Shown here piece by piece: positions 2,350-14,943 of a stretch of DNA of 64,000 bases. The position numbers and the translations under genes are program-made. This stretch comes from Phycisphaerae bacterium (GTDB lineage Bacteria; Planctomycetota; Phycisphaerae; Sedimentisphaerales; Anaerohalosphaeraceae), in contig JACZKQ010000045.1 of the NCBI GenBank assembly GCA_014859965.1, positions 1 through 64,000 of the forward strand. The letters run 5' to 3'. The notes beneath the pieces are model-generated. The model was not told the origin of the DNA. It did not search any database and was given only the letters and a program-made list of their open reading frames with translations. Position 1 is the stretch's first letter. Each line of letters opens with the position of its first letter.

Positions 2350-4959
2350 ATGGATTCCAAACGTGTTCTGTGGTTGGCGTGTTTTTGCATTTTTGCGGCT
2401 GGAATCGGCGGGGGTTTTGTTTCGGGGGCGACGCTGTTGTTGTACGATTTTCAGGACGGCAGCGGTACGACGGCGCTGGACCTGTCGGGCAATAACAATC
2501 ACGGCGTTCTGGCGGGCTTTGCCAATACGTCGGCGGGGGCGGGTTTATTCGGCACGAGCGAGGGCTGGGTGGCCGGCGGAGGCCTGAGTTTTCTGGCGGA
2601 TGCGGTTCGGAGCTATGTGTCAACGCCGCTTAGCCTCGGTGCGCTGACGGGGGATTTCACGGCGGAGTTTGTGGCAAGCTATACGGGGACCACTTCGTGG
2701 GCTCCGGTGTTCGGCTCGGATGTGTCTTCGTTCCAGGCGGCTCAGACGTTTTTCTTCGGGGTAAATTCCAATCAGACGAACGTCGAGGTGCGGGTGCAGA
2801 ATTCGGCGGGCGCGCTCGGGGTGCACCCGTGGAGTATACCTGACGCAACCAGCCATCATGTGGTAATGACGTACAGGAAGTCGGACAACCAGGTGCAGGT
2901 GTTCATTAACGGCGTTCTTGCGGCGACCGGCACGAGGGCGGCGACTATGAACACCGCCACGTCGAAGTTTCGGATCGGCAACACGGGGTGGGCGCCGGCC
3001 GAGCAGTGGGGCGGCGTGATTTACGGAGTGGCGATTTCAAACGAGCGGCTCGAACCCGGGGAGTTCGTTCTCAACTACAAGGCCCGGCAGCCGAACCCTG
3101 CCGATGGTGCAGGGCAGGTGGCGCCGGACAGCATTCTGAGCTGGCAACCGCCGAATACATTGCTGTTTCCAACCCCAACTTACAAGGTTTACATGGGGAC
3201 GACTCCGGCCGTGAGCCTTGCGGGGACAACAGATGAGGCAAGCTATAATCCGGGCGGCCTGGCCCGTGGGACGACTTATTACTGGCGCGTGGACGTCGAC
3301 GGAGGCGCGACAGGCGATTTGTGGACGTTTACCACGGAAGGGATTGCCACGCATCCGTCGCCCGGGCACGAGGATTGGGGGCAAAGTCCGCTGGTGACGC
3401 TGAAGTGGACTGGCGATGAGAGCATCGCTTCGTACGACGTCTGGATGAGCAGTGCGGGCGATCCGAATAGTGGGGGCTACGACCCGAACGCCGTGAGTTT
3501 TGTCGCGAACGTTACCGGGACGAGCTATACGCCCGCAGCAGCGCTGACGGATGGGGCCGCTTACAGTTGGCGGATAGTGACGCGGGACAGTGGAGGCTCC
3601 GTGATCGCGACGGGACCGGTTTGGCGGTTCGATGTCGGGCGGCTGGTTGCCCATTATGCCTTTGACGGGAATCTGTCCGATGCTTCGGGTGAAGGCAGGC
3701 ACGGCACGGCTCTAGGCGGTGTGTCGTTCGCACCGGGCCTGTCGGGTCAGGCGGCGGTGTTCAACGGATTGAATAACGGCGTGAGCATCGGCAACTGGAA
3801 CCCGGCGACGACGGGCAAACTGACGCTGTCGTGCCTTGCCAAGTGGAACGGCCTGAACGGCGGCTGGCAGGGTATCATCGGCAAGCGAGAGGCGTGGTCG
3901 GCGGCCGGCATGATGTTCCAGTGGCAGGCGCATAACACCAACGGCGCAGTTCGCTTCGCGACATTCAGCGACGGCGGCAATGCGGCGCCGATGCGGGCGC
4001 TGATACCCGGGCACTGGGAGCACCTGGCGGTGAGCTTCGACGGAACGCATGCGTGGGTGTACCTGGACGGCGAGTTGAAGGGCACGTATCCGTTCAGGTT
4101 CGATGGCGGCGCCGAGGCCGGCATGACGGTAGGAGCAACGTTTGCGGCGGCCGGCGCGGGTTCGGAGGTATTCAACGGACTCCTGGACGATGTGCGAATA
4201 TGGGACGGCATACGGCTGGACGAAGAAATCGAGACGCTTTACTGGGCGACACCGATCGCCAAGAGGCCGGACCCGGTGCACAGAGCGATTGACATGCCGC
4301 TGGACTGGGTGTTGAGCTGGACAACCGGCGGAGGGCCTGTTACGGGGCAGACGTTGTACCTGAATGACGATCCGAACATGGCAGGCGCGGTGCTTGAGAC
4401 GGTGAGCCTGGGCGCTTCGCAGACGAGTTATGCCCCGACGGCCGTGCTGAACCTCGCGCAGACGTACTACTGGCGCGTTGACACCGTAACGGCGACGGGT
4501 ACAATCGAAGGCAACGTGTGGAGCTTTACCACGGCGCCGCCGAGGCCGTACGATCCGATTCCGGCGGACGGCCAGACGGACCTTTTGCCGCACGAGGTTG
4601 TATTGAGCTGGCTGGCGGCCCCCGTCGGCGGTCCGTACACGCATACGGTGTACCTGAGCAAGAGCAACAGCAGCTTCAGCGATCCGGACGACAGGATGTT
4701 TGCGCTCGAGCCCGGAGCGACTTCACTGCAGCCGAGCGGGCTGAATTGGAGTTCGAGTTACTGGTGGCAGGTGAAGGGTGACGACGGGGCAAACCAGGTG
4801 GAGAGCGAGGTGTGGAGGTTTACCACGATTACACCACAATGCAATTCGCCGCTTTCGGCGGATGTGAACGGCGACTGCATGGTGGACCTTGCGGATCTGG
4901 CGGAGATTGCTGGCCAGTGGCTGCAGTGTAATCTGGTCCCGCAGTCGGCTTGTCCGTAA
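2350..4959 (+). CDS. Secreted two-LamG surface protein with dockerin-like tail
   Basis: An 869-residue protein starting at an ATG preceded by AAGGAG. It has a signal peptide (about residues 1-26), a LamG/concanavalin-like domain (about 27-225) and a fibronectin-III-like pair with repeated TYYWRVD strands. A second LamG domain follows (about 433-615, from LVAHYAFDGNLSD to LLDDVRIWDG), then two more YYWRV/SYWWQV modules. It ends in a dockerin-like module (ADVNGDCMVDLADLAEIAGQ). No catalytic residues are recognisable; the architecture suggests glycan binding or surface attachment. A 4988-5030 hairpin terminator follows the gene. The family is common in Phycisphaerae; the role is inferred. Confidence 0.83.
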   Translation: MDSKRVLWLACFCIFAAGIGGGFVSGATLLLYDFQDGSGTTALDLSGNNNHGVLAGFANTSAGAGLFGTSEGWVAGGGLSFLADAVRSYVSTPLSLGALTGDFTAEFVASYTGTTSWAPVFGSDVSSFQAAQTFFFGVNSNQTNVEVRVQNSAGALGVHPWSIPDATSHHVVMTYRKSDNQVQVFINGVLAATGTRAATMNTATSKFRIGNTGWAPAEQWGGVIYGVAISNERLEPGEFVLNYKARQPNPADGAGQVAPDSILSWQPPNTLLFPTPTYKVYMGTTPAVSLAGTTDEASYNPGGLARGTTYYWRVDVDGGATGDLWTFTTEGIATHPSPGHEDWGQSPLVTLKWTGDESIASYDVWMSSAGDPNSGGYDPNAVSFVANVTGTSYTPAAALTDGAAYSWRIVTRDSGGSVIATGPVWRFDVGRLVAHYAFDGNLSDASGEGRHGTALGGVSFAPGLSGQAAVFNGLNNGVSIGNWNPATTGKLTLSCLAKWNGLNGGWQGIIGKREAWSAAGMMFQWQAHNTNGAVRFATFSDGGNAAPMRALIPGHWEHLAVSFDGTHAWVYLDGELKGTYPFRFDGGAEAGMTVGATFAAAGAGSEVFNGLLDDVRIWDGIRLDEEIETLYWATPIAKRPDPVHRAIDMPLDWVLSWTTGGGPVTGQTLYLNDDPNMAGAVLETVSLGASQTSYAPTAVLNLAQTYYWRVDTVTATGTIEGNVWSFTTAPPRPYDPIPADGQTDLLPHEVVLSWLAAPVGGPYTHTVYLSKSNSSFSDPDDRMFALEPGATSLQPSGLNWSSSYWWQVKGDDGANQVESEVWRFTTITPQCNSPLSADVNGDCMVDLADLAEIAGQWLQCNLVPQSACP

Positions 4960-4987
4960 TAACGCCCGATTGTGGCAAAAAGCTTAC

Positions 4988-5030
4988 AGGCAGAGGGTTC
5001 GGCGAAACAGGCCGGGCCTTCTGCCTTTCT
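4988..5030 (+). terminator. Rho-independent-like terminator after LamG gene
   Basis: The stem AGGCAGAGG (4988-4996) pairs with CCTTCTGCCT (5017-5026) with one G-T pair, and is followed by a short T-rich stretch. It lies 29 bases past the stop of the LamG gene. Confidence 0.6.
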
Positions 5031-5775
5031 TAGCGGCGATGCGCCTTCCAGCCCGTGATCCGAGCGGTGCCGATTATACCAGGCGATGTAACAAACGATC
5101 CCTGTCACACCGAGGAGGGTGCGAAGCCTGGTTTATAGACGTCTTCAGAAAAGCACGAACAAATCCGAAATACAACACGCTTAGAGCCCTTATCTACTGG
5201 CAAATGGGTATCGATGCCTTCGACGGTTTTAACTGCCGGATCCGCTCGACCGACTCTGAGGCAGCGATATGGAAGTCTGAAATTGCAGAGCACAAGAGCT
5301 TCTGGTTGTCGGAGGTCAAGACTGCAGGCGGCACTAAGGTGACGGGTTCGGGAGGAGGTCTTTAGTGCCGGACTGACAAACCGGTTACGCGTACCGAAGT
5401 GAAATCGAAACCCTTTTAAATCACCCTGTATTACCACTCTTCAATCCTCACACGCTTTAGTGTAAAACAATGGCGAGCCGTCCTTCGGGACATTAAGGCT
5501 CGCCCGAGGATTTTTCGCACATGAAAGTGCTGCCCAGCCATCATGAAGCGAGACCTCCTACCGACGAGAATTATGGATTGGCCGAGTGCCAGCCGACGAT
5601 CGAAGTAGGGTGAATTCTTCCATATTGAAAATAATGCGTTACCGTCGAGAACTGTCAGAAGGCCCCGCAAGCTGCGCAATCCAAATAACACTGAAAGATC
5701 ATTGCCACGGCGGTGGGTTTTTGGCAGGGCATGGTATCATGGCCGCGAAAAACAGTCTTTTTGAAAGGATATGCT
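5031..5775. other. Non-coding stretch upstream of ubiquitin-like cassette
   Basis: About 745 bases with no convincing gene. It holds the hairpin at 5472-5515 and, on the minus strand near 5030-5108, a short translation (AWYNRHRSDHGLEGASP) faintly like the C-terminus of an integrase-core transposase. No transposase body, inverted repeats or target duplication was seen. The region may be the boundary of an acquired segment, but this is only an inference. Confidence 0.4.
5472..5515 (+). terminator. Strong hairpin with TTCG tetraloop and downstream T5
   Basis: GGCGAGCC (5472-5479) pairs with GGCTCGCC (5497-5504). The interior GTCC-TTCG-GGAC (5480-5491) forms a second stem closed by a classical UUCG-type tetraloop. 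TTTTT follows at 5511-5515. It could be a terminator for transcription entering from upstream, or part of a small structured RNA. No gene ends directly before it. Confidence 0.5.
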
Positions 5776-6819
5776 ATGACTTTGTTTCGGCCGTTGCGCA
5801 ATGAGCTTTACAAGTACCGGAAGAACAGAGGACGCTCCATCGATGGAATGATCCCCGGCACGGCAGGGCGGTTCAGGAAACTGACAACGCCATCCACCGA
5901 CGTGATATTAAGAGGTGCCGGCTATGATCATGACCTGTACATGGGGGATATGCCTCGCCAGTACCATCCGAATATCCATGCCCCGAACGTAGATTGGACC
6001 ACCTATGAGCAGGATCATCCTCATGATGTCTCACTCAGGCATACTCCCCAATCGGCTCATGGATTCGATCCTCCCTTTGGGCAACAGCCATTTGGTCTGA
6101 GCATGCCCTGTGATGAACTGGCCTTGAGCGAGCAGTGGCTCATGAACATGGGCGCCAGGCCAAGGCCGCAAGAAGGGCCTGTCCCCGGTTCGATGGAAGA
6201 GATTCGGCCGCTGCTTGATGGCGTCAGAATGACAATCCATGAGCAGGGAAGGCCTGAAACGCATACCATTCCCAGCTTGGAGGATGTGGCCGATGCATTG
6301 AATGTGTTGGAGAAAAGCCTCCCAGAGGACCATCCAGACATTATGCATCTGCGCCAGGCATTTCGGGTCATGGGCGGGCAATTGTCTGCACCTACAGAGG
6401 ATCTGCTGCCGCAGACTGCCTTACCTGCTGATCTGCCCGTATCCGGATTGCCTGAACAAACAGCCTTTTTCGAGGCGATGGAACTTGAAGTCACGCTACC
6501 GAATGCTGTGATGCCGCTCGATGATCTTGTGGACAGCTTGATGGCTGCCGAGCCCGGCCCAGCGCCGGCTCCTGTCGAAATGCCCATGCATGCGGCAGCG
6601 GAATATAGCGACATTGCTGCATATGATGGTACACTCGCTGCAGCAGAGATCGAACAAGCCATTGATCAGATGATGGCGGTGCCAAAGGAAGAGGAACTGT
6701 ACGATCCCTTGGCGGCAGGAGCGCAGCAATTCGAACAGGCCATGCAGTACATGGCCAATCCCTTTATGATGCCCGGTCAGATGGGGTTCACGGGACCGAT
6801 GCCCGGCCCAGGCTTCTGA
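5776..6819 (+). CDS. Unknown Pro/Met/Ala-rich protein, first gene of ubiquitin-like cassette
   Basis: A 347-residue protein not recognised from any family. The chosen ATG has GAAAGGA seven bases upstream; an in-frame upstream ATG at 5713 lacks a ribosome site. The N-terminus is basic (RNELYKYRKNRGRS). The middle is rich in Pro, His and Asp, with an acidic alpha-helical stretch around EDVADALNVLEKSLPEDHPD. The C-terminus is low-complexity and ends in Met-, Pro- and Gly-rich sequence (MMPGQMGFTGPMPGPGF). There is no signal peptide or membrane segment, so it is probably cytoplasmic. It is followed by a terminator and then the GHKL ATPase gene in the same direction. It could be a substrate or scaffold of the conjugation system, but nothing in the sequence proves this. 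Confidence 0.7.
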   Translation: MTLFRPLRNELYKYRKNRGRSIDGMIPGTAGRFRKLTTPSTDVILRGAGYDHDLYMGDMPRQYHPNIHAPNVDWTTYEQDHPHDVSLRHTPQSAHGFDPPFGQQPFGLSMPCDELALSEQWLMNMGARPRPQEGPVPGSMEEIRPLLDGVRMTIHEQGRPETHTIPSLEDVADALNVLEKSLPEDHPDIMHLRQAFRVMGGQLSAPTEDLLPQTALPADLPVSGLPEQTAFFEAMELEVTLPNAVMPLDDLVDSLMAAEPGPAPAPVEMPMHAAAEYSDIAAYDGTLAAAEIEQAIDQMMAVPKEEELYDPLAAGAQQFEQAMQYMANPFMMPGQMGFTGPMPGPGF

Positions 6820-6842
6820 ACCGGTTTATTATATTCGTTTGC

Positions 6843-6878
6843 GGGAGCCCTTTGGATTAGTCCAGCGGCTCCCTTTTT
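6843..6878 (+). terminator. Terminator between cassette genes 1 and 2
   Basis: GGGAGCC (6843-6849) pairs with GGCTCCC (6867-6873), and TTTTT follows at 6874-6878. It is a canonical intrinsic terminator lying 24 bases after the stop of the first cassette gene. Confidence 0.75.
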
Positions 6879-6889
6879 AATGCGCACTG

Positions 6890-6921
6890 GATGGCACGCT
6901 TCCGTTTTGGAGCGTGCCATC
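6890..6921. repeat. Perfect 11-bp inverted repeat upstream of GHKL ATPase (copy 1)
   Basis: The arms GATGGCACGCT (6890-6900) and AGCGTGCCATC (6911-6921) are perfectly complementary across a 10-base loop, and no T-tract follows. The right arm ends 11 bases before the GGAGGTGA ribosome site of the ATPase gene. The same arms recur at 8630-8661. It may be an operator or an mRNA stem-loop that sets processing or expression. Confidence 0.7.
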
Positions 6922-6944
6922 GCTCTTTGAATGGAGGTGAAATT

Positions 6945-8561
6945 ATGCAAGAAACAATCTGTGCAAGGGTCAACGCGAGGCTGTTGACCAAAGCCGACCG
7001 GCTCTTTACGGGGACGGTCGAGGGCAGGATCATCGAGATTCTGCAGAATGCAAGGCGTGCCGGCGGGACAACCGTCAAGATCACGAACCATAATGGTTTG
7101 GTGACGGTCCGGGACAACGGCTCCGGGATAGAGGATTTCCAAAAGCTTCTGGACCTGGGCGGAAGCGGCTGGGATGAGCAGCTTGAGAGGGGAGAAGACC
7201 CGGCCGGCGTAGGATTGTTCAGTCTGGCCCCGCGGGAGGTGACCATCGTATCAGGCCACCGACAGGCGGTCATTGACGCTGAGGGCTGGACGGGCAAACC
7301 CGTTGAAGTCACAGAGGCCGACAAGGCGGTCTCGGGCACTCTGTTGAGGTTCAAGGATGATAAGCCCTGGGACTTTGATACCGTGGAAAAGCATGCTGTA
7401 TTCTGCGGCATGACGGTCGTGGTGGATGGCAAACGCTGCCATGCCACACCGTTTTGCTCGGACGCAGCCGTGCACTACCAAACACCGGGCTGCAGGATCG
7501 AGATCACAAACGAGATCTCCAACTACCACCAGAAATGGCTGTTGACCTGGTACACGGGCAAGATCCTGGTGAACTTCCACGGCCAGGTGGTGCAACTGGA
7601 CTGCTGGCCGGCCAAGAACCGTAATCGCTTGGCGATCCTTGTGGACATCACACAGGACACGGCGATACGCCTGATGCTGCCGGCAAGGACTTGTCTGATA
7701 GAGAATGAGGCATATGAACAGCTCAAATCAGCGATAGAAAAGGAGTTCTACCGCTACTGGCAGAGGCAGAAGAGCCATTCGCTATACTACGATGAGTACC
7801 TTCGCGCCCGAGAGCTCGGTGTCGAACTACCGGAGGCGGAGCCGCAGTTCCAAGTGGGCCTGATCAGCGATGAATACGATCAGGCTGTCCAAATTACCAT
7901 GACCAGGGAGTTCAACGTGAGAGATGGCTATTTGTGCTTGGATGATGACGGAATCGACGAACACGCCGAAACCAACGCCCACCTGCTGGCAGCCACCGGC
8001 AAACTGAAAGACACGCCCTTTGTGCCTGTGACCATCCATTCCGGCTACATGGGTTACAGTTGGAGCAATCTGCCCAGGGTCACCAAAGTTGATGTGAGCC
8101 GGGGCAAAGAACTGCTCAGGCATTCGATCGGCTGCCACGATATCGCCTGTTTTGACGAACTGTCGATCCGAGTGGAGACGTCAGACGGAAAGAGCTTCGA
8201 AAGCGACGTCCCGATAGCGGTCGTCGATCAGCCGCCGGTCAGGGAAGGCTGCTGGCACACCGATCTGGTCTGCGTAACAACGGCTGCCAGAAATCATCTG
8301 GTAAATGACAACATCTGGTACCATATGGGCGGCTTCGACGGCGAAGGCGACAGCTATGACACTCAGTCGTGCCGCTTCGAGAAATTGCTGGATGAGTTCT
8401 GGAACGACCTCATTGGGCCATATGAGAGCCTGCGCCAGAAGCTGCTTGATGATATGGCTTGTCTCTTTGACGCGTGGCGAAAGGCTGTGCTCACAGAGGA
8501 TGGCCGGCTGGAGATCTATTTCAAGGATGGCAGCTGTCGAGAGGTGAGGCCTGGAGCTTAA
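6945..8561 (+). CDS. GHKL (Hsp90/histidine-kinase-fold) ATPase of ubiquitin-like cassette
   Basis: A 538-residue protein; the ATG follows an excellent GGAGGTGA site. The N-terminal domain has the Bergerat ATP-binding fold: N-box E31-x3-N35 (EILQNARRAG), G1 box D57NGSGI and G2 box GVGLFS from about residue 88. This is the arrangement of Hsp90, MutL, MORC and gyrase-B ATPases; the glutamate in the N-box is compatible with ATP hydrolysis. No phosphoacceptor His domain is seen, so it is not a standard sensor kinase. The remaining ~350 residues are not recognised. Hsp90-like ATPases often act as nucleotide-driven clamps. Here it may remodel or select targets for conjugation, which is inference from neighbourhood only. 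Confidence 0.82.
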   Translation: MQETICARVNARLLTKADRLFTGTVEGRIIEILQNARRAGGTTVKITNHNGLVTVRDNGSGIEDFQKLLDLGGSGWDEQLERGEDPAGVGLFSLAPREVTIVSGHRQAVIDAEGWTGKPVEVTEADKAVSGTLLRFKDDKPWDFDTVEKHAVFCGMTVVVDGKRCHATPFCSDAAVHYQTPGCRIEITNEISNYHQKWLLTWYTGKILVNFHGQVVQLDCWPAKNRNRLAILVDITQDTAIRLMLPARTCLIENEAYEQLKSAIEKEFYRYWQRQKSHSLYYDEYLRARELGVELPEAEPQFQVGLISDEYDQAVQITMTREFNVRDGYLCLDDDGIDEHAETNAHLLAATGKLKDTPFVPVTIHSGYMGYSWSNLPRVTKVDVSRGKELLRHSIGCHDIACFDELSIRVETSDGKSFESDVPIAVVDQPPVREGCWHTDLVCVTTAARNHLVNDNIWYHMGGFDGEGDSYDTQSCRFEKLLDEFWNDLIGPYESLRQKLLDDMACLFDAWRKAVLTEDGRLEIYFKDGSCREVRPGA

Positions 8562-8629
8562 GCACCTCTTATTCCATTCAATCCTTCTTTGCGAGAAGGT
8601 TTACTATAGACGTTTTGGCAGTTAGTTTA

Positions 8630-8661
8630 GATGGCACGCTTGCCATGTGGAGCGTGCCATC
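8630..8661. repeat. Perfect 11-bp inverted repeat upstream of DUF2958 gene (copy 2)
   Basis: The arms GATGGCACGCT (8630-8640) and AGCGTGCCATC (8651-8661) are identical to those at 6890-6921; the loop differs but also ends in TGG. It is followed by an AGAGGTGAAA ribosome site, as at the first copy. Confidence 0.7.
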
Positions 8662-8688
8662 GCTTCTTAAAGAAACAGAGGTGAAACT

Positions 8689-9591
8689 ATGGCTTGGAGA
8701 GTATCAGCGTATTTGGTGGAAGGCGAGCTGGACAACACCCGGCCCGGCAGGGTCACGGGCTGGATGCAGTTTGCCGGAATGAAGGAAAAGGTGACATTTG
8801 ATCTGGAAGGCAACTTCCACAGGGATATCCGTGGGGCGAAGATCCATTTACAGGGGGATGCCTTTGAAGGTGATATACCTGCAGACGCCGAGGCGTACAT
8901 GCAGGGGTTTTCCTCGCATCAGACCGGTAAAGCGGGAGATATCACGGCAGGAAGGGAACCAGTTGATTACGTTCCGTATCCCTATGTTGAGGTCTTTTCC
9001 GCCGAGAATGGCCGTGTCGTCATCGAGCTGGAGCCGGTGCAGGTGGAAGTGATCGGACAGCCGATCCCCGCTGAGGAATCGGACCCCATCAGCCGGAAAG
9101 AACAGCAGGAGAATATGGCCGAGTTTTTGTGCGGCATGGCGGATGCTATGGGAATCTCAGAAGGCCAGGCAGTATCGATTGGAGACACAGTGGCAGTGGA
9201 ACAGGCCAAGAAAGTCGTAGCCAATGACAGGATCCGGGGCATGAAGCTGCTTCCCAAGGAGATCCGTGAGCAACTGCCGGCACTGTATGCCCAGGACGGC
9301 AAGGGCGGCAAGGCCGTGGCGTATGTGAAGTTCTTCACGCCCTCAAGTTCATGGACCTGGTGGGTTACCGAGGGAAGCCCGATCATGGATGACGCCGGAC
9401 GCGAGGTGGACTTCCAGTTCTTCGGACTGGTGGAAGGACACTGTCGGGAGATGGGTTACTTCAACCTTTCGGAACTGGAATCGGTCAGAGGGCCTATGGG
9501 TCTTCCCATTGAGCGCGATCTGTATTGGCGGCCGAAGACGTTGGAGGAGATCGCGCCGGAGATGTTCTGCGAACAGCAGGGGGGTGACTGA
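8689..9591 (+). CDS. DUF2958 domain protein with extra N-terminal domain
   Basis: A 300-residue protein. The N-terminal ~125 residues form a domain I cannot name (MKEKVTFDLEGNFHRDIRGA, then a GFSSHQTGKAGDITAG segment). The C-terminal ~115 residues match the DUF2958 pattern: LLPKEIREQLPALYAQD, YVKFFTPSSSWTWWVTEGSP, FGLVEGHCREMGYFNLSELE and GLPIERDLYWRPKTL. DUF2958 proteins are known mainly from plasmids and integrative elements and have no established activity. No membrane segment is seen. It is preceded by the repeated stem-loop, and its stop lies two bases before the next ATG, which indicates translational linkage with that gene. Confidence 0.8.
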   Translation: MAWRVSAYLVEGELDNTRPGRVTGWMQFAGMKEKVTFDLEGNFHRDIRGAKIHLQGDAFEGDIPADAEAYMQGFSSHQTGKAGDITAGREPVDYVPYPYVEVFSAENGRVVIELEPVQVEVIGQPIPAEESDPISRKEQQENMAEFLCGMADAMGISEGQAVSIGDTVAVEQAKKVVANDRIRGMKLLPKEIREQLPALYAQDGKGGKAVAYVKFFTPSSSWTWWVTEGSPIMDDAGREVDFQFFGLVEGHCREMGYFNLSELESVRGPMGLPIERDLYWRPKTLEEIAPEMFCEQQGGD

Positions 9592-9593
9592 CC

Positions 9594-9827
9594 ATGAACA
9601 AGCACGATAAACCGTGTCTTGCGATTGGGCCCCCTCCCGAGGATCATAGTCAGCAGCCGTTGTTTCGCGTGGTCTATGTCATCGATGTCAACGCGGATAA
9701 CGTTCGCGGGGCCGCTGAAGACACGCACCGGATCATGACTGACCCGGAATCCCTGCCGCCTGTGCTGCAGGTCATCGATCACACAGGCACATGCACCACG
9801 ATTGATCTGTCTGAGCCTAAAGGGTAG
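9594..9827 (+). CDS. Small conserved-looking protein of cassette (77 aa)
   Basis: A 77-residue protein starting two bases after the DUF2958 stop; the GGGGGTGAC overlapping that stop is its ribosome site. The core (FRVVYVIDVNADNVRGAAEDTHRIMTDPESLPPVLQVID) predicts a beta-alpha-beta fold and has the look of a small accessory protein from mobile elements. No function is known to me. The tight spacing suggests it is co-translated with the DUF2958 protein. Confidence 0.65.
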   Translation: MNKHDKPCLAIGPPPEDHSQQPLFRVVYVIDVNADNVRGAAEDTHRIMTDPESLPPVLQVIDHTGTCTTIDLSEPKG

Positions 9828-9883
9828 CTGTCCGGTTCAGACCCCATACCTGATCATCACACCCCAAGCGAAAGGAACAGTTT

Positions 9884-9967
9884 ATGGAGAACCACACCAC
9901 CAGTGCGCGCAGTCCGCCAGAAAAGAGCGGGTCGCCAAACAAACATCAACACAAACCTATTTTATGA
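9884..9967 (+). CDS. Possible 27-residue micro-ORF before ubiquitin-like gene
   Basis: An ATG with an AAAGGA site eight bases upstream opens a 27-codon frame. It encodes a Ser-, Pro-, His- and Lys-rich peptide beginning MENHTTSARSPPEKSG. It ends 13 bases before the ATG of the ubiquitin-like gene. It may be a leader peptide that couples translation, or a small disordered partner. Coding is uncertain at this length. Confidence 0.35.
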   Translation: MENHTTSARSPPEKSGSPNKHQHKPIL

Positions 9968-9980
9968 AAGGAAGTGGATC

Positions 9981-10202
9981 ATGAGAGTACTGTTTATCAA
10001 CAACAATGGAGCAGGCTATGCAGATTACGTGGATGTTTCGCACGACATGACCGTTGAGTCCTTCTTCCAGGACAAGATGGCCGGCTGCAAGGAGAGCGAC
10101 TACCTCATCCGCGTCAACCGTCAGCCGGTCGCCAAGGACTATGTTTTGAAGGAGGGAGACCGCATCACGATTACCCCACTCAAGATCGAGGGCGCCGTGT
10201 AG
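9981..10202 (+). CDS. Ubiquitin-like (MoaD/ThiS-like beta-grasp) modifier protein
   Basis: A 73-residue protein starting at an ATG with GAAAGGAAG upstream. Its pattern is beta-grasp: an N-terminal strand (MRVLFINNNG), the helix DMTVESFFQDKM, a strand YLIRVNRQPV, the loop KDYVLKEGDRITITPLKI typical of MoaD/ThiS/Urm1 proteins ('L-x-x-G-D-x-I-x-x-x-P'), and a C-terminal tail EGAV. The usual di-glycine terminus is absent: one Gly is followed by Ala-Val. It sits just before the E2-like, JAMM and E1-like genes, so it is the likely protein modifier. A sulfur-carrier role is less likely because the cassette has an E2 and a deconjugating peptidase. Confidence 0.8.
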   Translation: MRVLFINNNGAGYADYVDVSHDMTVESFFQDKMAGCKESDYLIRVNRQPVAKDYVLKEGDRITITPLKIEGAV

Positions 10203-10230
10203 TCCTGCCATCAACAGAAAGTGTCAACCA

Positions 10231-10273
10231 GGGCATCTGCTTATCCCCGTGATAGGCAGGTGCCCACTTTTTT
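10231..10273 (+). terminator. Terminator/attenuator-like hairpin abutting E2-RING ribosome site
   Basis: GGGCATCTGC (10231-10240) pairs with GCAGGTGCCC (10256-10265), a 10-bp stem with one G-T pair, and T6 follows at 10268-10273. The T-tract ends directly at the GGAAAGGAG ribosome site of the next gene, so read-through control is plausible. Confidence 0.65.
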
Positions 10274-10290
10274 GGAAAGGAGCAAGGCCT

Positions 10291-11397
10291 ATGAATAACA
10301 AGGCATTTCATGTTGCCGTTGTGGTGCAGCAAAGCATCATCAAGATGCACGAGGCATGTCGCCTTGAACGGCTGAATCGGTATGGCCGGCTGGCGGAAGA
10401 TGTGGAGACGTTTGCCAATCTGATCTCACTCTGCCAGAAGGCCCTGCACAAGAAGTGGCATCTGGCAGCCGAGCGAATTCAGAGGCGCCTGACCAACTGT
10501 GTTTCAGACCTGTGGTATGCGTTGCAGAACTGCAAGCAGGTCTCGGTGGAACTGCCGCCTGTCCCCAGTCTGAGAACACTGATCGCCGAGCTGGAACAGT
10601 TGGACACCGAATTAGGGCCGTATGAATTCGATCGCGCCAATAAAAGGCTGTCCATCATAACCGAGGACATCGAACTTGAAGATGTTGTCCTCGGACCGTT
10701 TCGGATTGATTTGGACCTGCGCCAAATGGTCCACGGCAGCCATGATTCACCCTACGCCTGTGTTGCCACAGAGCCCAACCCCGCTTCGGGCAACATCAGC
10801 ACCACCCATCCCCATGTCAGTGATAACCGGCTATGCGAGGGCGACGGCAAGATCCCCATCCGAAAGGCCTTGGAGCAGGGCAGGATATGTGATTTCTTCC
10901 TGCTGGTTGCCAACACGCTCAATACCTACAACCCTGAAAGTGCCTACGTGCGGCTGGACGACTGGACGGGAGAGCAGTGCTATGACTGCGGCGACAGTAT
11001 TCACGGCGATAACGTCTATTATTGTCCCAACTGCGATTATGAATACTGCAGCTACTGTTCATCTTATTGCCGCAGCTGCGATGAAGCCTGCTGCCTGGGT
11101 TGCGGGGGTGAATGCCACGGCTGCGGGGAATTTGTGTGTCCGCGGTGCGTTGCCGCGTGTGTCGAATGCAAGAAGAAGTATTGTACTAACTGTCTGGAAG
11201 ACCAGATGTGTCCTGACTGCAGAGAAAGGAACCAAGAGAATGAAGACCAAACAGACGAAGACGGAAGTGAAGGAAACGAAGTTGAACAAGGTGCCGGATT
11301 CGCCGAGACGGTCCGGACGCCAGACGGAGTACTGTCTGCGCTTCAGCCCGATGGCTTGGGCGAAGCTCTTGTATTTCCGGGACAAGGGCCACAATGA
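10291..11397 (+). CDS. E2-like (UBC-fold) conjugating domain fused to RING/treble-clef-like zinc region
   Basis: A 368-residue protein; the ATG follows GGAAAGGAG. Residues ~1-110 are helical. Residues ~125-225 have the signature of an E2/UBC fold: the strand VVLGPFRIDLDL, the flap THPHVSDNRLCEGDG with H173-P-H175 and a candidate catalytic Cys182, then a helix and YNPESAYVRLDDW. Known bacterial E2 families carry the same 'HPH...C' arrangement. Residues 230-310 contain 21 cysteines in ten CxxC-type pairs, as expected for stacked RING/zinc-ribbon treble clefs. The C-terminal tail is acidic (residues ~312-335) and its coding sequence overlaps the next gene by 158 bases. It could act as a combined E2-E3. 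The fusion is read directly; the activity is inference. Confidence 0.85.
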   Translation: MNNKAFHVAVVVQQSIIKMHEACRLERLNRYGRLAEDVETFANLISLCQKALHKKWHLAAERIQRRLTNCVSDLWYALQNCKQVSVELPPVPSLRTLIAELEQLDTELGPYEFDRANKRLSIITEDIELEDVVLGPFRIDLDLRQMVHGSHDSPYACVATEPNPASGNISTTHPHVSDNRLCEGDGKIPIRKALEQGRICDFFLLVANTLNTYNPESAYVRLDDWTGEQCYDCGDSIHGDNVYYCPNCDYEYCSYCSSYCRSCDEACCLGCGGECHGCGEFVCPRCVAACVECKKKYCTNCLEDQMCPDCRERNQENEDQTDEDGSEGNEVEQGAGFAETVRTPDGVLSALQPDGLGEALVFPGQGPQ

Positions 11398-12016
11398 GGT
11401 AGGCGGCTTCGGGGTGAGTGATGCAGAAGACCTGTTGTATGTGCAGGATTTCGTGACGGTAAAGCAGGAGGTTACGGGCGTCAGTGTCAAATTCGATGAC
11501 CAGGCTGTGAGCGACTACATGGAGGACCAGGTCGATCGCGGGAGGAAACCGGAACAACTCATGCGCATCTGGTGCCATACGCATCCCGGATTTTCCCCGG
11601 AGCCCAGTTGGGTGGACGAGGAGACGTTCGGCAGAGTGTTTGGCAGTTGCCAGTGGGCCCTCATGTTCATCCTGAGCGCTGACGGCCAGACCTACGCGAG
11701 GCTTAGTTTCAATGTCGGCCCGCGGGGCTGCATCCTTATTCCTGTGCGAGTCGACTACAGCCGCGAGTTTGACGGCAGCGACTGGAAGGCCTGGGATGCG
11801 GAGTACGAGGCGAATGTCCGGCCGGCCGTACGCATGGAAAGACTGGCTATCCGTGAAGATGAGCATCCACAGAGGCGTTCAGAACACTTCGGATTGTCTT
11901 ATGACTTCCTGGATGAACTGGAGCAGATGGATGTCCAGGAGCGGCAGCTTGTGCTGGATGAACTGGCCGACCGTCAGGATCTGTGGGATGAGGAAAGTGA
12001 GGTCATGTTCATATGA
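11240..12016 (+). CDS. JAMM/MPN (JAB) metallopeptidase of ubiquitin-like system
   Basis: A 258-residue protein. The complete JAMM zinc-peptidase motif is present: Glu53 in NEVGGFG, then H113-T-H115-P with Ser123 and Asp126 (HTHPGFSPEPSWVDEE). Such enzymes (Rpn11, AMSH, CBASS Cap3) remove or process ubiquitin-like proteins. Here it may trim the Ala-Val tail of the modifier and/or deconjugate it. The chosen ATG has AAAGGA nine bases upstream but lies inside the E2-RING gene, giving a 158-base overlap in another frame. A later ATG (11350) would start just before the core domain and has a poorer site. The basic N-terminus (KTKQTKTEVKETK) may be disordered. The stop overlaps the E1 start by four bases (ATGA). 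Confidence 0.9.
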   Translation: MKTKQTKTEVKETKLNKVPDSPRRSGRQTEYCLRFSPMAWAKLLYFRDKGHNEVGGFGVSDAEDLLYVQDFVTVKQEVTGVSVKFDDQAVSDYMEDQVDRGRKPEQLMRIWCHTHPGFSPEPSWVDEETFGRVFGSCQWALMFILSADGQTYARLSFNVGPRGCILIPVRVDYSREFDGSDWKAWDAEYEANVRPAVRMERLAIREDEHPQRRSEHFGLSYDFLDELEQMDVQERQLVLDELADRQDLWDEESEVMFI

Positions 12017-12684
12017 ATACCGACCAACTCATCGAACGGTACAGCCGGCAGAAGGACATCGTTCCTATGGAACGGCTGCATGAATGCAGGGCCACGGTTA
12101 TTGGCGTTGGTGCAATCGGCCGTCAGGTGGCGCTGCAGTTGGCTGCCATTGGTATCCGATGGCTCCAACTCGTGGACTTTGATCTGGTCGAGGCGAGTAA
12201 CCTCGCAAGTCAGGGTTACTGGGAAGAGGACCTGAGCACGTCTAAGGTGCAGGCCACTTCCGACCTGTGCTACAAGATCAACGAGAGCATCGAAGTCGTT
12301 GAGGTTGAGGAGCGGTTCAATCGCCGGATGGAGATTGGAAACACGGTCTTTTGTTGTGTTGACAGCATTCAAGTACGGCAGTTGATCTGGTCAGTAGTCG
12401 GAGACAAGGTGCTGTTTTTCTGCGATGGAAGGATGGCGGCCGAGACCATGCGCATCCTGACTGCCTGTGACACGGCTTCACGGTACCACTATCCGAAGAC
12501 CTTGTTTGCTGCCGAGGAGGCCTTTGCCGGCACTTGTACGGCCAAGACTACGATCTACTGCGCCAACATGGCGGCCGCCCTGATGGTCGCACAGTTTGCC
12601 AAGTACCTGCGCCACTTGCCCGTGGACCCGGACGTCCAGTTCAACCTGCTGGCAATGGAATGTACTGTTGCCGAAGTCAAGTGA
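12013..12684 (+). CDS. ThiF/E1-like adenylating enzyme
   Basis: A 223-residue protein. The Rossmann nucleotide-binding motif G31-V-G-A-I-G36 is followed by VDFDLVEASNLASQGYWEED and STSK, matching the ThiF/MoeB/E1 'D-x-D-x-V-x-x-S-N-L-x-x-Q-x...D-x-x-x-x-K' signature. FCCVDSIQVR matches the conserved 'D-x-x-x-x-R' segment. Cys175 in the GTCTAKTTIYC loop is a candidate thioester cysteine; Cys183 is also close. The zinc-binding CxxC pairs of MoeB are not seen, and there is no rhodanese domain, so this resembles a minimal E1 (single adenylation domain). Its start overlaps the JAMM stop (ATGA), so the two are translationally coupled. It is predicted to adenylate the modifier and pass it to the E2-like Cys182. 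Confidence 0.88.
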   Translation: MNTDQLIERYSRQKDIVPMERLHECRATVIGVGAIGRQVALQLAAIGIRWLQLVDFDLVEASNLASQGYWEEDLSTSKVQATSDLCYKINESIEVVEVEERFNRRMEIGNTVFCCVDSIQVRQLIWSVVGDKVLFFCDGRMAAETMRILTACDTASRYHYPKTLFAAEEAFAGTCTAKTTIYCANMAAALMVAQFAKYLRHLPVDPDVQFNLLAMECTVAEVK

Positions 12685-12691
12685 ACAAACG

Positions 12692-12735
12692 AGCCCTGCG
12701 GTGTCTCAACACGGATGCCGCGGGGCTTCCTTCTG
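12692..12735 (+). terminator. Stem-loop between E1-like gene and last cassette gene
   Basis: AGCCCTGCGG (12692-12701) pairs with CCGCGGGGCT (12718-12727), a 10-bp stem with one G-T pair, followed by TCCTTCT. The ribosome site GAAAGG of the next gene begins at 12735. It is a weak terminator or attenuator-like element. Confidence 0.5.
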
Positions 12736-12747
12736 AAAGGATCAATC

Positions 12748-13362
12748 ATGTTGTACCTGAGACTCTTTCACGGCCGCAAAGACCCGGCCCAAGAGATGGA
12801 TGACTGGGGCGCCGATGGCCCGATCTTTGGGCCGTACAGATTCATCCACACCACATATGGCGCCCACGTGACCCTCGGATTAGACAACGGCGAGATGCAC
12901 GACCTGTACACGGTCGAGAGCATGATCTACTATGATGGGGTGTACTACGGCGACTGGAGTGTGTTCACGGAAGAGACCAGCCTCAAGGAGGCCGGCTTCT
13001 CAGCACAGCCCTATGACGGCCAGAAGGCAAAGTTGCCCGAAAAGGACGGTGTATCGACCGGCAAGAAGAACCCTCCGGTGAAGATCGTCGTCTATGTGAT
13101 GGGCGGTCTCTGCCAGGACGTAAAGACCAACCTGCCGGATGATTCTTGTGAGTATGCGATTGTTGACTATGACAACGAACCAGGCTTGCCCGACAATCAC
13201 GTCCCTTATGCAGCAGAAGACATGAAGACCCTGCCGTCGATACCTGTTCTACTGGAATTGGCCGACGCCGCAAAGAATGTTGTGAGGAACTGGGAGTCTG
13301 GCGATCTCGCTGGACCAGTACGTCGAATGGCTGAGATCCTTGACCGGATCGAACATGCGTGA
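12748..13362 (+). CDS. Unknown last gene of ubiquitin-like cassette
   Basis: A 204-residue protein; the ATG has GAAAGG seven bases upstream. The N-terminal ~75 residues (LYLRLFHGRKDPAQEMDDWG, then a YYDGVYYGDWSVF segment) look like a small conserved domain of accessory or mobile regions, but I know no function for it. The middle is Lys/Pro-rich and the C-terminus is helical (VLLELADAAKNVVRNWES). There is no signal peptide. A strong terminator at 13401-13427 ends the unit, so this is the last gene of the cassette. Confidence 0.7.
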   Translation: MLYLRLFHGRKDPAQEMDDWGADGPIFGPYRFIHTTYGAHVTLGLDNGEMHDLYTVESMIYYDGVYYGDWSVFTEETSLKEAGFSAQPYDGQKAKLPEKDGVSTGKKNPPVKIVVYVMGGLCQDVKTNLPDDSCEYAIVDYDNEPGLPDNHVPYAAEDMKTLPSIPVLLELADAAKNVVRNWESGDLAGPVRRMAEILDRIEHA

Positions 13363-13400
13363 CCATCACTCTCAATCGCATTTCTTGTCTCCTTTTGTTT

Positions 13401-13427
13401 CGCAGCCGTCTTTCTGGCTGCGATTTT
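13401..13427 (+). terminator. Terminator at end of ubiquitin-like cassette
   Basis: CGCAGCC (13401-13407) pairs with GGCTGCG (13416-13422), and ATTTT follows. It lies 38 bases past the last stop and separates the cassette from the convergent HEAT-repeat gene. Confidence 0.7.
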
Positions 13428-13512
13428 CACCCTCACTTAGCGATAGCTATGCAGTTTTGGGGCTGGGGCACCTTTGTTTTTGGGCTGAAAATGCGGGTTT
13501 TGTGCGCTGTTT

Positions 13513-14943
13513 TCAATGCACGTGCTGCTCGCTTTGCAGAATGCTTGTCTTGGTAGACTCTAAGTGATTATTCGTATTTTGCGATGGTAAAGGCACATCC
13601 AATAGCTTCTTAGCCCTGTCCTGGGTCACTTTGTTCCGGACAGTTTGAAGTACCTTCTGTGTCACCGCCCGCACCTGGCTTTGGCTGCCTTCACTGATGT
13701 TCTCTGCAATCAGCACGGCGGCGAGGCCCGCATCCTCCGCGATCTCCGTCTGGTCCAGGCCGGAGGCAACCAGCGTCAGCGATTCCAGCGTCGGGATCGT
13801 GCCCAGAACGCCCAGCACCAAAACCTTCTCTTCTTTGCGTGTGGCCAGCTTCATCGCTTCCCTCAAGTCGGCAAGATTTGCCGGGCGGTTCTTTCCCGGG
13901 CTGGCCAGGCGCACAATGCCGCGCAGGGCCAGGACGTGATTCCGCAGATTCTCAGTGTCTTGCGCCAGTGTCTTCAGATGAGGAATGGCGTTCGGATCAC
14001 GCCAGTCGGCGAGGACACGGACGGCCTCAGCGCGGACGCCCTGGTCATCGTCCTTCAAACGCGCGACAATCTGGTTCAGGGATTTCGGTCCACCGGTTAG
14101 AGGGAGGACACGCATCATGAGAATACGTGTTGCCGTATCGGCTCCGTCAAAACCAGCGATAACGGCATGCTCGCATTTGATGCGTTCTCGCCCACATATC
14201 GCCAGCAATGCCATTGCAGTGTGCCTGCGTTCCGATGCATCCTCTGCCGATTTGAGACGCTCCACAAGCATCTCCGCATGCTTTTCATCACCCATAACGC
14301 GAAGGGCGCTTAGGACTGCCAGCCTGACTGCCAGATCGGAATCGTCGGCGTTCTCAAGGATTACGGGCAGCGACTCCTTTACGTTGCGGTCAACGATCGC
14401 AGCAATCAGTTCGATTCGCGGTTTTGTGTCGGCATTTCTCAATGCCTCGGTCATGGCAACGTTCATTTCGTCACCGCGAAGGTGTCGTAGGCTGTATCTG
14501 GCGGCTTCCTTCTCGAGGTCCAACCCTGTTGCAGCCATTTTGGCCAGCAGAGGGATATCCGCGGAACTTGCGAGGCCGGAGATGGCACGTGCGGCCATGG
14601 CACGAATGGCTTCGGCCTCGCTGTTCAGCATTTCGAGAATTGCCGGCCTGGCGGCGGCATCGCCGCGTTCGCCCAGGGCATCTATTAGTTTGATCTGCAC
14701 GTCGGGCGCGAGGTCAGGCAGCAGTTCGACAAAACGCCGGGTCGCATCCTCTCCCGGCAACTCTTCACGGATCTGTTGGAGTGCCAAGGCGCGCATGTCG
14801 TTGTCCGAGCCGCTTATCAACTCGACAATCATATCGACGGCATCATCCTCCGCGGCACGCGCCTGGCCTGTCAGGGAAGAGGCAAGTCCGGCCAGACATA
14901 CAAGTGCTGCCAGACGGAAGGAGTTGGCATATCGGTAAATCAT
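13513..14943 (-). CDS. Exported HEAT-repeat protein (476 aa)
   Basis: A signal peptide (MIYRYANSFRLAALVCLAGL, then an AxA-type cleavage near QARA-AE) is followed by about ten HEAT-like helical repeats, with recurring patterns such as RALALQQIREELPGED, AIRAMAARAISGLASSADIP, LAVRLAVLSALRVMGDEKHA and GVRAEAVRVLADWRDPNAIP. HEAT repeats are protein-binding scaffolds, and no enzyme motif is seen. The gene is convergent with the ubiquitin-like cassette and follows another HEAT-repeat gene on the same strand. The pairing, with an oxidoreductase upstream, suggests a periplasmic adaptor unit of unknown purpose. Confidence 0.82.
   Translation of the reverse strand: MIYRYANSFRLAALVCLAGLASSLTGQARAAEDDAVDMIVELISGSDNDMRALALQQIREELPGEDATRRFVELLPDLAPDVQIKLIDALGERGDAAARPAILEMLNSEAEAIRAMAARAISGLASSADIPLLAKMAATGLDLEKEAARYSLRHLRGDEMNVAMTEALRNADTKPRIELIAAIVDRNVKESLPVILENADDSDLAVRLAVLSALRVMGDEKHAEMLVERLKSAEDASERRHTAMALLAICGRERIKCEHAVIAGFDGADTATRILMMRVLPLTGGPKSLNQIVARLKDDDQGVRAEAVRVLADWRDPNAIPHLKTLAQDTENLRNHVLALRGIVRLASPGKNRPANLADLREAMKLATRKEEKVLVLGVLGTIPTLESLTLVASGLDQTEIAEDAGLAAVLIAENISEGSQSQVRAVTQKVLQTVRNKVTQDRAKKLLDVPLPSQNTNNHLESTKTSILQSEQHVH

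Follow-up and report, generated by a model that had tools for sequence, protein, structure and literature searches.

A putative four-gene ubiquitin-like tagging cassette on mobile elements and phages of planctomycetes

We analyzed a run of nine open reading frames (ORFs) at positions 5776–13362 of a 64,000-nt stretch of DNA, hereafter the window, from Phycisphaerae bacterium (contig JACZKQ010000045.1, our contig C111, of a 5.28-Mb assembly). All nine are collinear on the forward strand, as described in an initial annotation, which had read the run as a ubiquitin-like conjugation cassette. At its heart is a four-gene core (9981–12684, single strand), which encodes a ubiquitin-like modifier (Ubl), an E2-like protein fused to a Cys-rich region, a JAMM peptidase and a ThiF-type E1:

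9981–10202, forward strand: Ubl, a ThiS-like beta-grasp modifier of 73 amino acids (aa), from alignment and Pfam ThiS.
10291–11397, forward strand: E2-like protein of 368 aa, with a helical N-terminal region, a UBC domain and a C-terminal Cys-rich domain, from profile and structure model.
10549–10974, forward strand: UBC (E2) domain, from an 86-row alignment, model and fold matches.
10978–11220, forward strand: Cys-rich region, a possible E3-like part, from Cys columns in the E2 profile alignment.
11240–12016, forward strand: JAMM peptidase, from alignment and a profile match to Rpn11.
12013–12684, forward strand: E1/ThiF-type adenylating enzyme of 223 aa with a single domain, from Pfam ThiF and profile.

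The genes are tightly packed, as the initial annotation had stated. An ATGA overlap (12013–12016) joins the JAMM and E1 genes, and upstream of the core only two bases separate the stop of a DUF2958 gene (9591) from the start of a 77-aa ORF (9594). The JAMM gene starts at ATG 11240, giving a 158-nt overlap with the E2-like gene. Past its own stop, the E2 frame still seems conserved in relatives, but this only reflects the JAMM gene, which uses the same bases in a different frame. Pfam searches with the window proteins alone returned ThiF (8.1e-22), DUF2958 (1.2e-12) and weak matches to HATPase and Prok-JAB. PADLOC and NCBIfam models gave no system name for the cassette proteins, and an Rfam scan of 4900–14000 gave no match.

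Pfam ThiS was matched by 15 of 16 Ubl family members (best 8.7e-7). The window Ubl ends in ...TPLKIEG-A-V, in which Ala and a short tail of variable residues come after the invariant Gly71 (10191–10193). Across 96 Ubl tails, the Gly was always present (96/96) and Ala came next in 89, with 0–51 variable residues afterwards. This pattern of an invariant Gly plus a variable extension fits, without proving, maturation at the Gly by the JAMM peptidase. The latter carries the complete zinc motif EXnH[ST]HX7SX2D (Glu53, HTH 113–115, Ser123 and Asp126); the strict pattern is present in 74/80 homologues, and the profile matches Rpn11 (3e-3). The E1 profile matches PaaA, ThiF, MoeB, UBA enzymes and BubCD. 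Cys175 of the E1 (12535–12537) is invariant, as are its GxGxxG, Asp and Lys, and Cys175 may be the acceptor of the Ubl.

In the UBC domain, an HPH motif (10807–10815) precedes Cys182 (10834–10836), the presumed catalytic residue. Both H-P-H and the Cys are invariant in the 86-row alignment of the domain, and HPHx6C is found in 88/88 homologues tested. The E2-like protein has no significant Pfam family and no sequence-profile match to the UBC superfamily; nor did any cassette protein match the Pfam families Prok-E2 and Prok-Ub. A fold search with the whole protein was dominated by the long helices and placed an E2 only at rank 8 (E 0.39), so the UBC domain was modelled alone. The model, built from the 86-row alignment, had a predicted local distance difference test score (pLDDT) of 90.2 and a predicted template-modelling score (pTM) of 0.86. 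Its top 50 fold matches in the PDB were all ubiquitin E2s (Ubc13, Rad6, UBE2W and others), the best being Ubc13 (E 5.7e-3, prob 0.99, TM ∼0.5). As modelled, the E2-like region has a UBC fold. Pattern scans for this single protein in genome and viral collections returned nothing, and no E2-like homologue was found among PLSDB plasmids or INPHARED phages.

These results bear out the four assignments of the initial annotation, namely a beta-grasp modifier, an E2-like domain, a JAMM peptidase with a complete zinc motif and a ThiF/E1-like enzyme. Two findings, by its account, would have refuted its reading: an E2-like region without a UBC fold, and ThiF and MoaD-like genes that belong to a molybdopterin or thiamine pathway. 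Neither holds. The E2-like region models as an E2, and we rejected the idea of a housekeeping pair: separate ThiS–ThiF pairs lie elsewhere in the genome, on contigs C138 and C90, and no gene of either pathway is among the Pfam matches of the run at 5776–13362.

The Cys-rich region contains ten CxxC knuckles (∼five Zn sites) and no His, and its Cys columns are invariant or nearly so. Profile matches were weak and mixed (RING, B-box, FYVE and PHD); Pfam RING gave no match, and the region lacks a C3HC4/C4HC3 cross-brace. With ten CxxC and no His, the tail is not a canonical RING, and the earlier designation of an E2-RING protein does not hold. At one related locus, L036, the E2-like frame (8057–9166) has an in-frame TGA in the Cys-rich region, reflecting either a pseudogene or a sequencing error.

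A Ubl profile search of GTDB genomes yielded 132 loci, nearly all from Planctomycetota, of which 80 were kept. Wherever all four genes are present at a non-redundant locus, they lie on one strand in the order Ubl-E2-JAMM-E1 (76/76), a collinearity that puts the arrangement far above chance. One genome has six copies. Planctomycete-like cassettes at L057 and L078, from metagenome-assembled genomes labelled Actinomycetes and SAR324, are probably binning errors. L040 and L041, both cassette copies of one genome, have a gene between Ubl and E2 (5693–6394 and 3035–3736, respectively) that by eye resembles an N6 DNA methyltransferase.

The E1 tree has two clades (support 100/100), which agree with the sets of partner genes found next to the core. 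The window cassette, which falls beside L049, belongs to clade A, in which the partners are a GHKL-fold ATPase and a DUF2958 protein. L119, a clade-A row labelled as the other type, is probably no real exception, because its AAA match has only 28% identity. In the window, the neighbours of the core are:

6890–6921, forward strand: inverted repeat GATGGCACGCT-N10-AGCGTGCCATC upstream of the GHKL gene, from a genome pattern search.
6945–8561, forward strand: GHKL-fold ATPase of 538 aa, associated but not obligate, from a weak HATPase_c_3 match and motifs seen by eye.
8630–8661, forward strand: a second, identical inverted repeat upstream of the DUF2958 gene, from motif and motif-free searches.
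8689–9591, forward strand: 300-aa protein with a C-terminal DUF2958 domain (PF11171, 1.2e-12), associated but not obligate.
9594–9827, forward strand: 77-aa protein, kept with DUF2958 in clade-A loci (13 non-redundant loci).
12748–13362, forward strand: ∼204-aa protein 3′ of the E1 gene (open frame from 12715), from homology.

The two partner sets show zero overlap. Among non-redundant loci, 28 carry GHKL and/or DUF2958, and 37 carry an AAA module, defined by an AAA ATPase related to Cdc48/VCP (1e-36) and/or its conserved companion protein, often accompanied by a DUF1257-like gene. One set or the other is present at 48 of the 56 loci with at least 4.8 kb of upstream sequence. DUF2958 occurs at 26 non-redundant cassette loci, and the order GHKL-DUF2958-77-aa protein-Ubl is repeated in clade A. 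The GHKL assignment combines a match to HATPase_c_3 below the cut-off (6.6e-4) with N-box and G motifs recognized by eye; the start of this gene was corrected to ATG 6945. A literature search found no text joining DUF2958 to ubiquitin-like systems.

GHKL adjoins the cassette in clade-A loci, and is also found without it: stretches lacking the cassette carry GHKL and DUF2958 at L158, L160, L162, L168, L171 and L173. In two of these (L158, 7313–15882; L162, 1919–8952), DUF2958 and GHKL are followed by AAA_5 and CobT/vWA genes. The two proteins, which the initial annotation had counted as parts of the cassette, are thus recurrent neighbours rather than obligate components. Likewise, eleven fetched loci (L208–L218) have the AAA module without the cassette, in the form DUF1257-AAA-C3-C11-C6, and in several of them genes follow that by eye resemble a sliding clamp and a Cas4/RecB-type nuclease. 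Both partner modules can thus stand apart from the cassette, a pattern that we interpret as a mobile-element cargo slot into which different modules fit.

The 11-bp inverted repeats GATGGCACGCT/AGCGTGCCATC, with a loop of 10, are identical before GHKL and DUF2958, and their pattern occurs only at these two places in the 5.28-Mb genome. When inverted repeats were sought without a motif, they turned up ahead of 8 of 19 DUF2958 genes (0.3 expected) and 7 of 28 GHKL genes (0.5 expected). Many of these share a GGCAC/GTGCC core, and they are present also in loci without the cassette; none was found before the core genes of the window. The repeats may be RNA hairpins or operator sites, and their presence before both genes suggests a shared regulation of GHKL and DUF2958 as genes of the backbone. 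A covariation count on the repeats was discarded, as the sequences had been pre-chosen as inverted repeats and two rows were end-padded.

The initial annotation had also included two flanking proteins in the run, and these differ in their standing. The downstream protein, of 215 aa over its whole open frame, recurs in clade A (7 non-redundant loci); by homology it probably starts at 12748 and has 204 aa. A further relative, at L158, lies downstream of the AAA_5/CobT/vWA-type locus, without the cassette. The upstream ORF (5776–6819) is a genuine reading frame for a 347-aa orphan. Searches of ∼100 related loci and of 38 further genomes from the family detected no relative of its product, and it is tied to the cassette by position alone. 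Further upstream, 5115–5365 is the C-terminal remnant (65% identity) of a gene for a 387-aa secreted protein, glycosidase-like by eye. In L049, which holds the cassette closest to that of the window, an intact copy of this gene is found downstream of E1.

Cassette copies are flanked by large serine recombinases, tyrosine integrases, and HerA/TraG-like and Orc/Cdc6-like ATPases. Four IMG/VR contigs have the Ubl, and three of them (L044, L045 and L047), all with complete cassettes, also have a terminase. In L044 (IMGVR_UViG_3300033141_003139), a phage DNA polymerase and an exonuclease lie beside the cassette at 8998–11802. In L047 (IMGVR_UViG_3300017987_000001), the terminase is 3.5 kb from a very divergent cassette (9001–13584; 27–41% identity). 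In the window, the G + C content at 5–14 kb is 52–57%, and that of the flanks is higher, mostly 58–64%.

Of the known systems, Bil has genes in the order Ubl-E2-JAMM-E1 (BilA to BilD), and the cassette shares with it four separate Ubl, E2, JAMM and E1 proteins encoded in the same order at all 76 collinear loci. Bil (BilABCD) is a bacterial ISG15-like system, and its BilB has a CEHH motif, with E at +6, H at +8 and H at +13 from the Cys (PMC11354881). The cassette E2 instead has HPHx6C, and Cys182 is followed by E-G-D-G-K-I-P-I-R, with I at +6, I at +8 and E at +13. Moreover, BilA has two ubiquitin-like domains, whereas the cassette Ubl is one 73-aa domain. BilD has inactive and active adenylation domains plus a Cys domain, whereas the cassette E1 is one 223-aa ThiF domain, which scores only 19.8 bits over ∼100 residues against the PADLOC BilD model. 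The N-terminal helical region and Cys-rich tail of the cassette E2 are additional differences.

Other systems resemble the cassette in part. Operons of the planctomycete/Caldiarchaeum type (E1-E2-RING-Ub-JAMM) also hold a complete ubiquitin-like kit with a Zn-binding candidate E3. In the Caldiarchaeum operon, the RING is a separate small protein, whereas in the window the E2 itself bears the Cys-rich region as a fusion. For the related planctomycete operons, a 2014 review (PMC4197634) cites Burroughs, Iyer and Aravind 2011. Like PRTRC (row 6d of Iyer 2006, PMC1779556), the cassette brings Ub-like, JAB, E1-like and E2-like genes together on mobile elements. Its E1, however, scores 17.4 bits with PRTRC_ThiF, for which the cut-off is 144.75; the other PRTRC models gave no match, and no PRTRC partner was identified among the recurrent neighbours. 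Ubl conjugation has also been linked to MoxR-vWA conflict systems (FtsH-ternary) in planctomycetes, in which JAB, E1, E2, Ubl and RING-type genes are tied to AAA/vWA NTPase modules (PMC7159879). This is reminiscent of the GHKL-DUF2958 elements, some of which bear the Ubl cassette and others AAA_5 and CobT/vWA genes. In the MoxR-vWA systems, though, the Ubl forms a fusion with E2 and EAD1, accompanied by a caspase-like effector, while the cassette Ubl is separate and no effector was identified. Finally, the adenylation domain of the cassette E1 matches BubCD (PDB 9ea4, 9ea5) at 2.1e-10. Unlike BubCD and Cap2/Cap3 of the cyclic-oligonucleotide-based anti-phage signalling system (CBASS), the cassette has neither an E1–E2 or BubCD-like fusion nor a CD-NTase; in the run at 5776–13362 we found no CD-NTase and no fused E1–E2 Cap2 of the type II CBASS kind.

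By its motifs and domain make-up, the cassette, with its Bil-like set and order, is not Bil, nor is it PRTRC or CBASS. It is a distinct variant of a kind whose outline is already known, the bacterial ubiquitin-like systems. The initial annotation could not name the combination, which is fair for the exact set of genes, and had suggested an undescribed subtype; but according to the review cited above, ubiquitin-like operons of planctomycetes were reported in 2011. What can defensibly be called new here is an E2 family with a Cys-rich tail fused to it, partner modules that differ by clade, the pattern of a cargo slot and the presence of copies on phages.

What the data show is the gene set, its order, the motif conservation, the E2 fold of the model and the mobile and phage context. 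We read the core (9981–12684) as probably a self-contained, reversible ubiquitin-like protein-tagging module. The JAMM peptidase would trim the short variable tail of the Ubl, exposing the invariant Gly (...K-I/V-E/D-G). The E1, MoeB/ThiF-like and probably homodimeric, would adenylate the Ubl, take it onto Cys175 and hand it to the E2 domain at Cys182. As a built-in E3-like part, the fused Cys-rich region may position substrates, and the JAMM peptidase could also remove the tag. The module would be cargo that phages and integrating mobile elements carry in Planctomycetota; in the window's clade it sits behind a GHKL-DUF2958 backbone, and in the sister clade behind the Cdc48-like AAA module. 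Its likeliest role would be protein tagging in conflict among mobile element, host and rival phages, following a Bil-like logic. The enzymatic steps, the E3-like role, the substrates and the part in conflict are what we infer from these genes.

Several observations weigh against such a module. The E2 fold match is consistent, yet its E is only 5.7e-3 and its TM ∼0.5; the Asn of the classical E2 HPN is replaced by His, and the Cys-rich part matches no known E3 profile. Near the Ubl C-terminus there is one Gly, not GG. The E1 has neither a Cys domain nor a ubiquitin-fold domain, and the Arg of its NxxRQ is replaced by Thr/Ser in the aligned family. A defence-model census of the flanks gave scattered single matches only, and was not used as evidence of defence; phage carriage suits host takeover as well as defence. 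Homologues of the recombinases of other copies were not found within the 64-kb window. With its low G + C content yet no such homologue, the window copy may be what is left of an element that has settled. That it is a decaying, functionless leftover we regard as most improbable: the missing recombinase and the remnant gene upstream (5115–5365) would suit decay, but the core ORFs are all intact and keep every invariant residue.

The tag might instead serve offence or counter-defence, with proteins of the host or of rivals modified to favour the phage or mobile element and not to shield the host. Complete cassettes on contigs that have terminase, phage DNA polymerase and exonuclease genes (L044, L047) would suit this, as would the several copies per genome and the recombinase neighbours. 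But the majority of copies are chromosomal, phages and integrative and conjugative elements carry ordinary defence systems too, and no target of the tag is known, so we treat offence as a minority possibility. We think it unlikely that the Ubl cassette and the GHKL, DUF2958, 77-aa and 215-aa proteins make up a single obligate machine, for example with a chaperone acting on tagged proteins. Such a machine would account for the repeated GHKL-DUF2958-77-aa protein-Ubl order in clade A and for the shared, genome-unique inverted repeats, yet GHKL and DUF2958 are also found where the cassette is absent (at L158 and L162 with AAA_5 and CobT/vWA genes after GHKL), and sister-clade cassettes have the AAA module instead, which itself also occurs without the cassette. 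A sulfur-carrier system, in which a JAMM-trimmed, E1-adenylated ThiS-like carrier delivers sulfur and the E2-like protein handles or binds it, appears improbable. The Ubl is indeed ThiS-like, the E1 is short and MoeB/ThiF-like, and JAMM trimming is known for sulfur carriers (CysO–Mec, QbsE). Against this, a UBC-fold protein with an invariant Cys is present at every locus, the recurrent neighbours include no gene for a sulfurtransferase, a desulfurase or biosynthesis, the cassette is carried by mobile elements and phages, and ThiS–ThiF pairs exist elsewhere in the genome.

Beyond the tagging module itself lies a more far-reaching and rather unlikely proposition: a phylum-wide mobile Ubl pathway with fused E2 and E3, which passes tagged substrates to a partner ATPase exchanged from clade to clade (Cdc48-like AAA in one, GHKL in the other), is also used by planctomycete phages, and would be an independent bacterial counterpart of ubiquitin–Cdc48. 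If the chemistry is as inferred, the cassette would be a ubiquitin-like system of minimal size, four genes in all, whose E2 lies outside the Pfam families and has a Zn module built in; copies stand at more than 100 loci of one phylum and on phages. It would then offer a compact model for the joining of E2 and E3 functions, and for the exchange of a tagging module among mobile elements with different ATPases. It would also bear on whether phages themselves deploy ubiquitin-like tagging.

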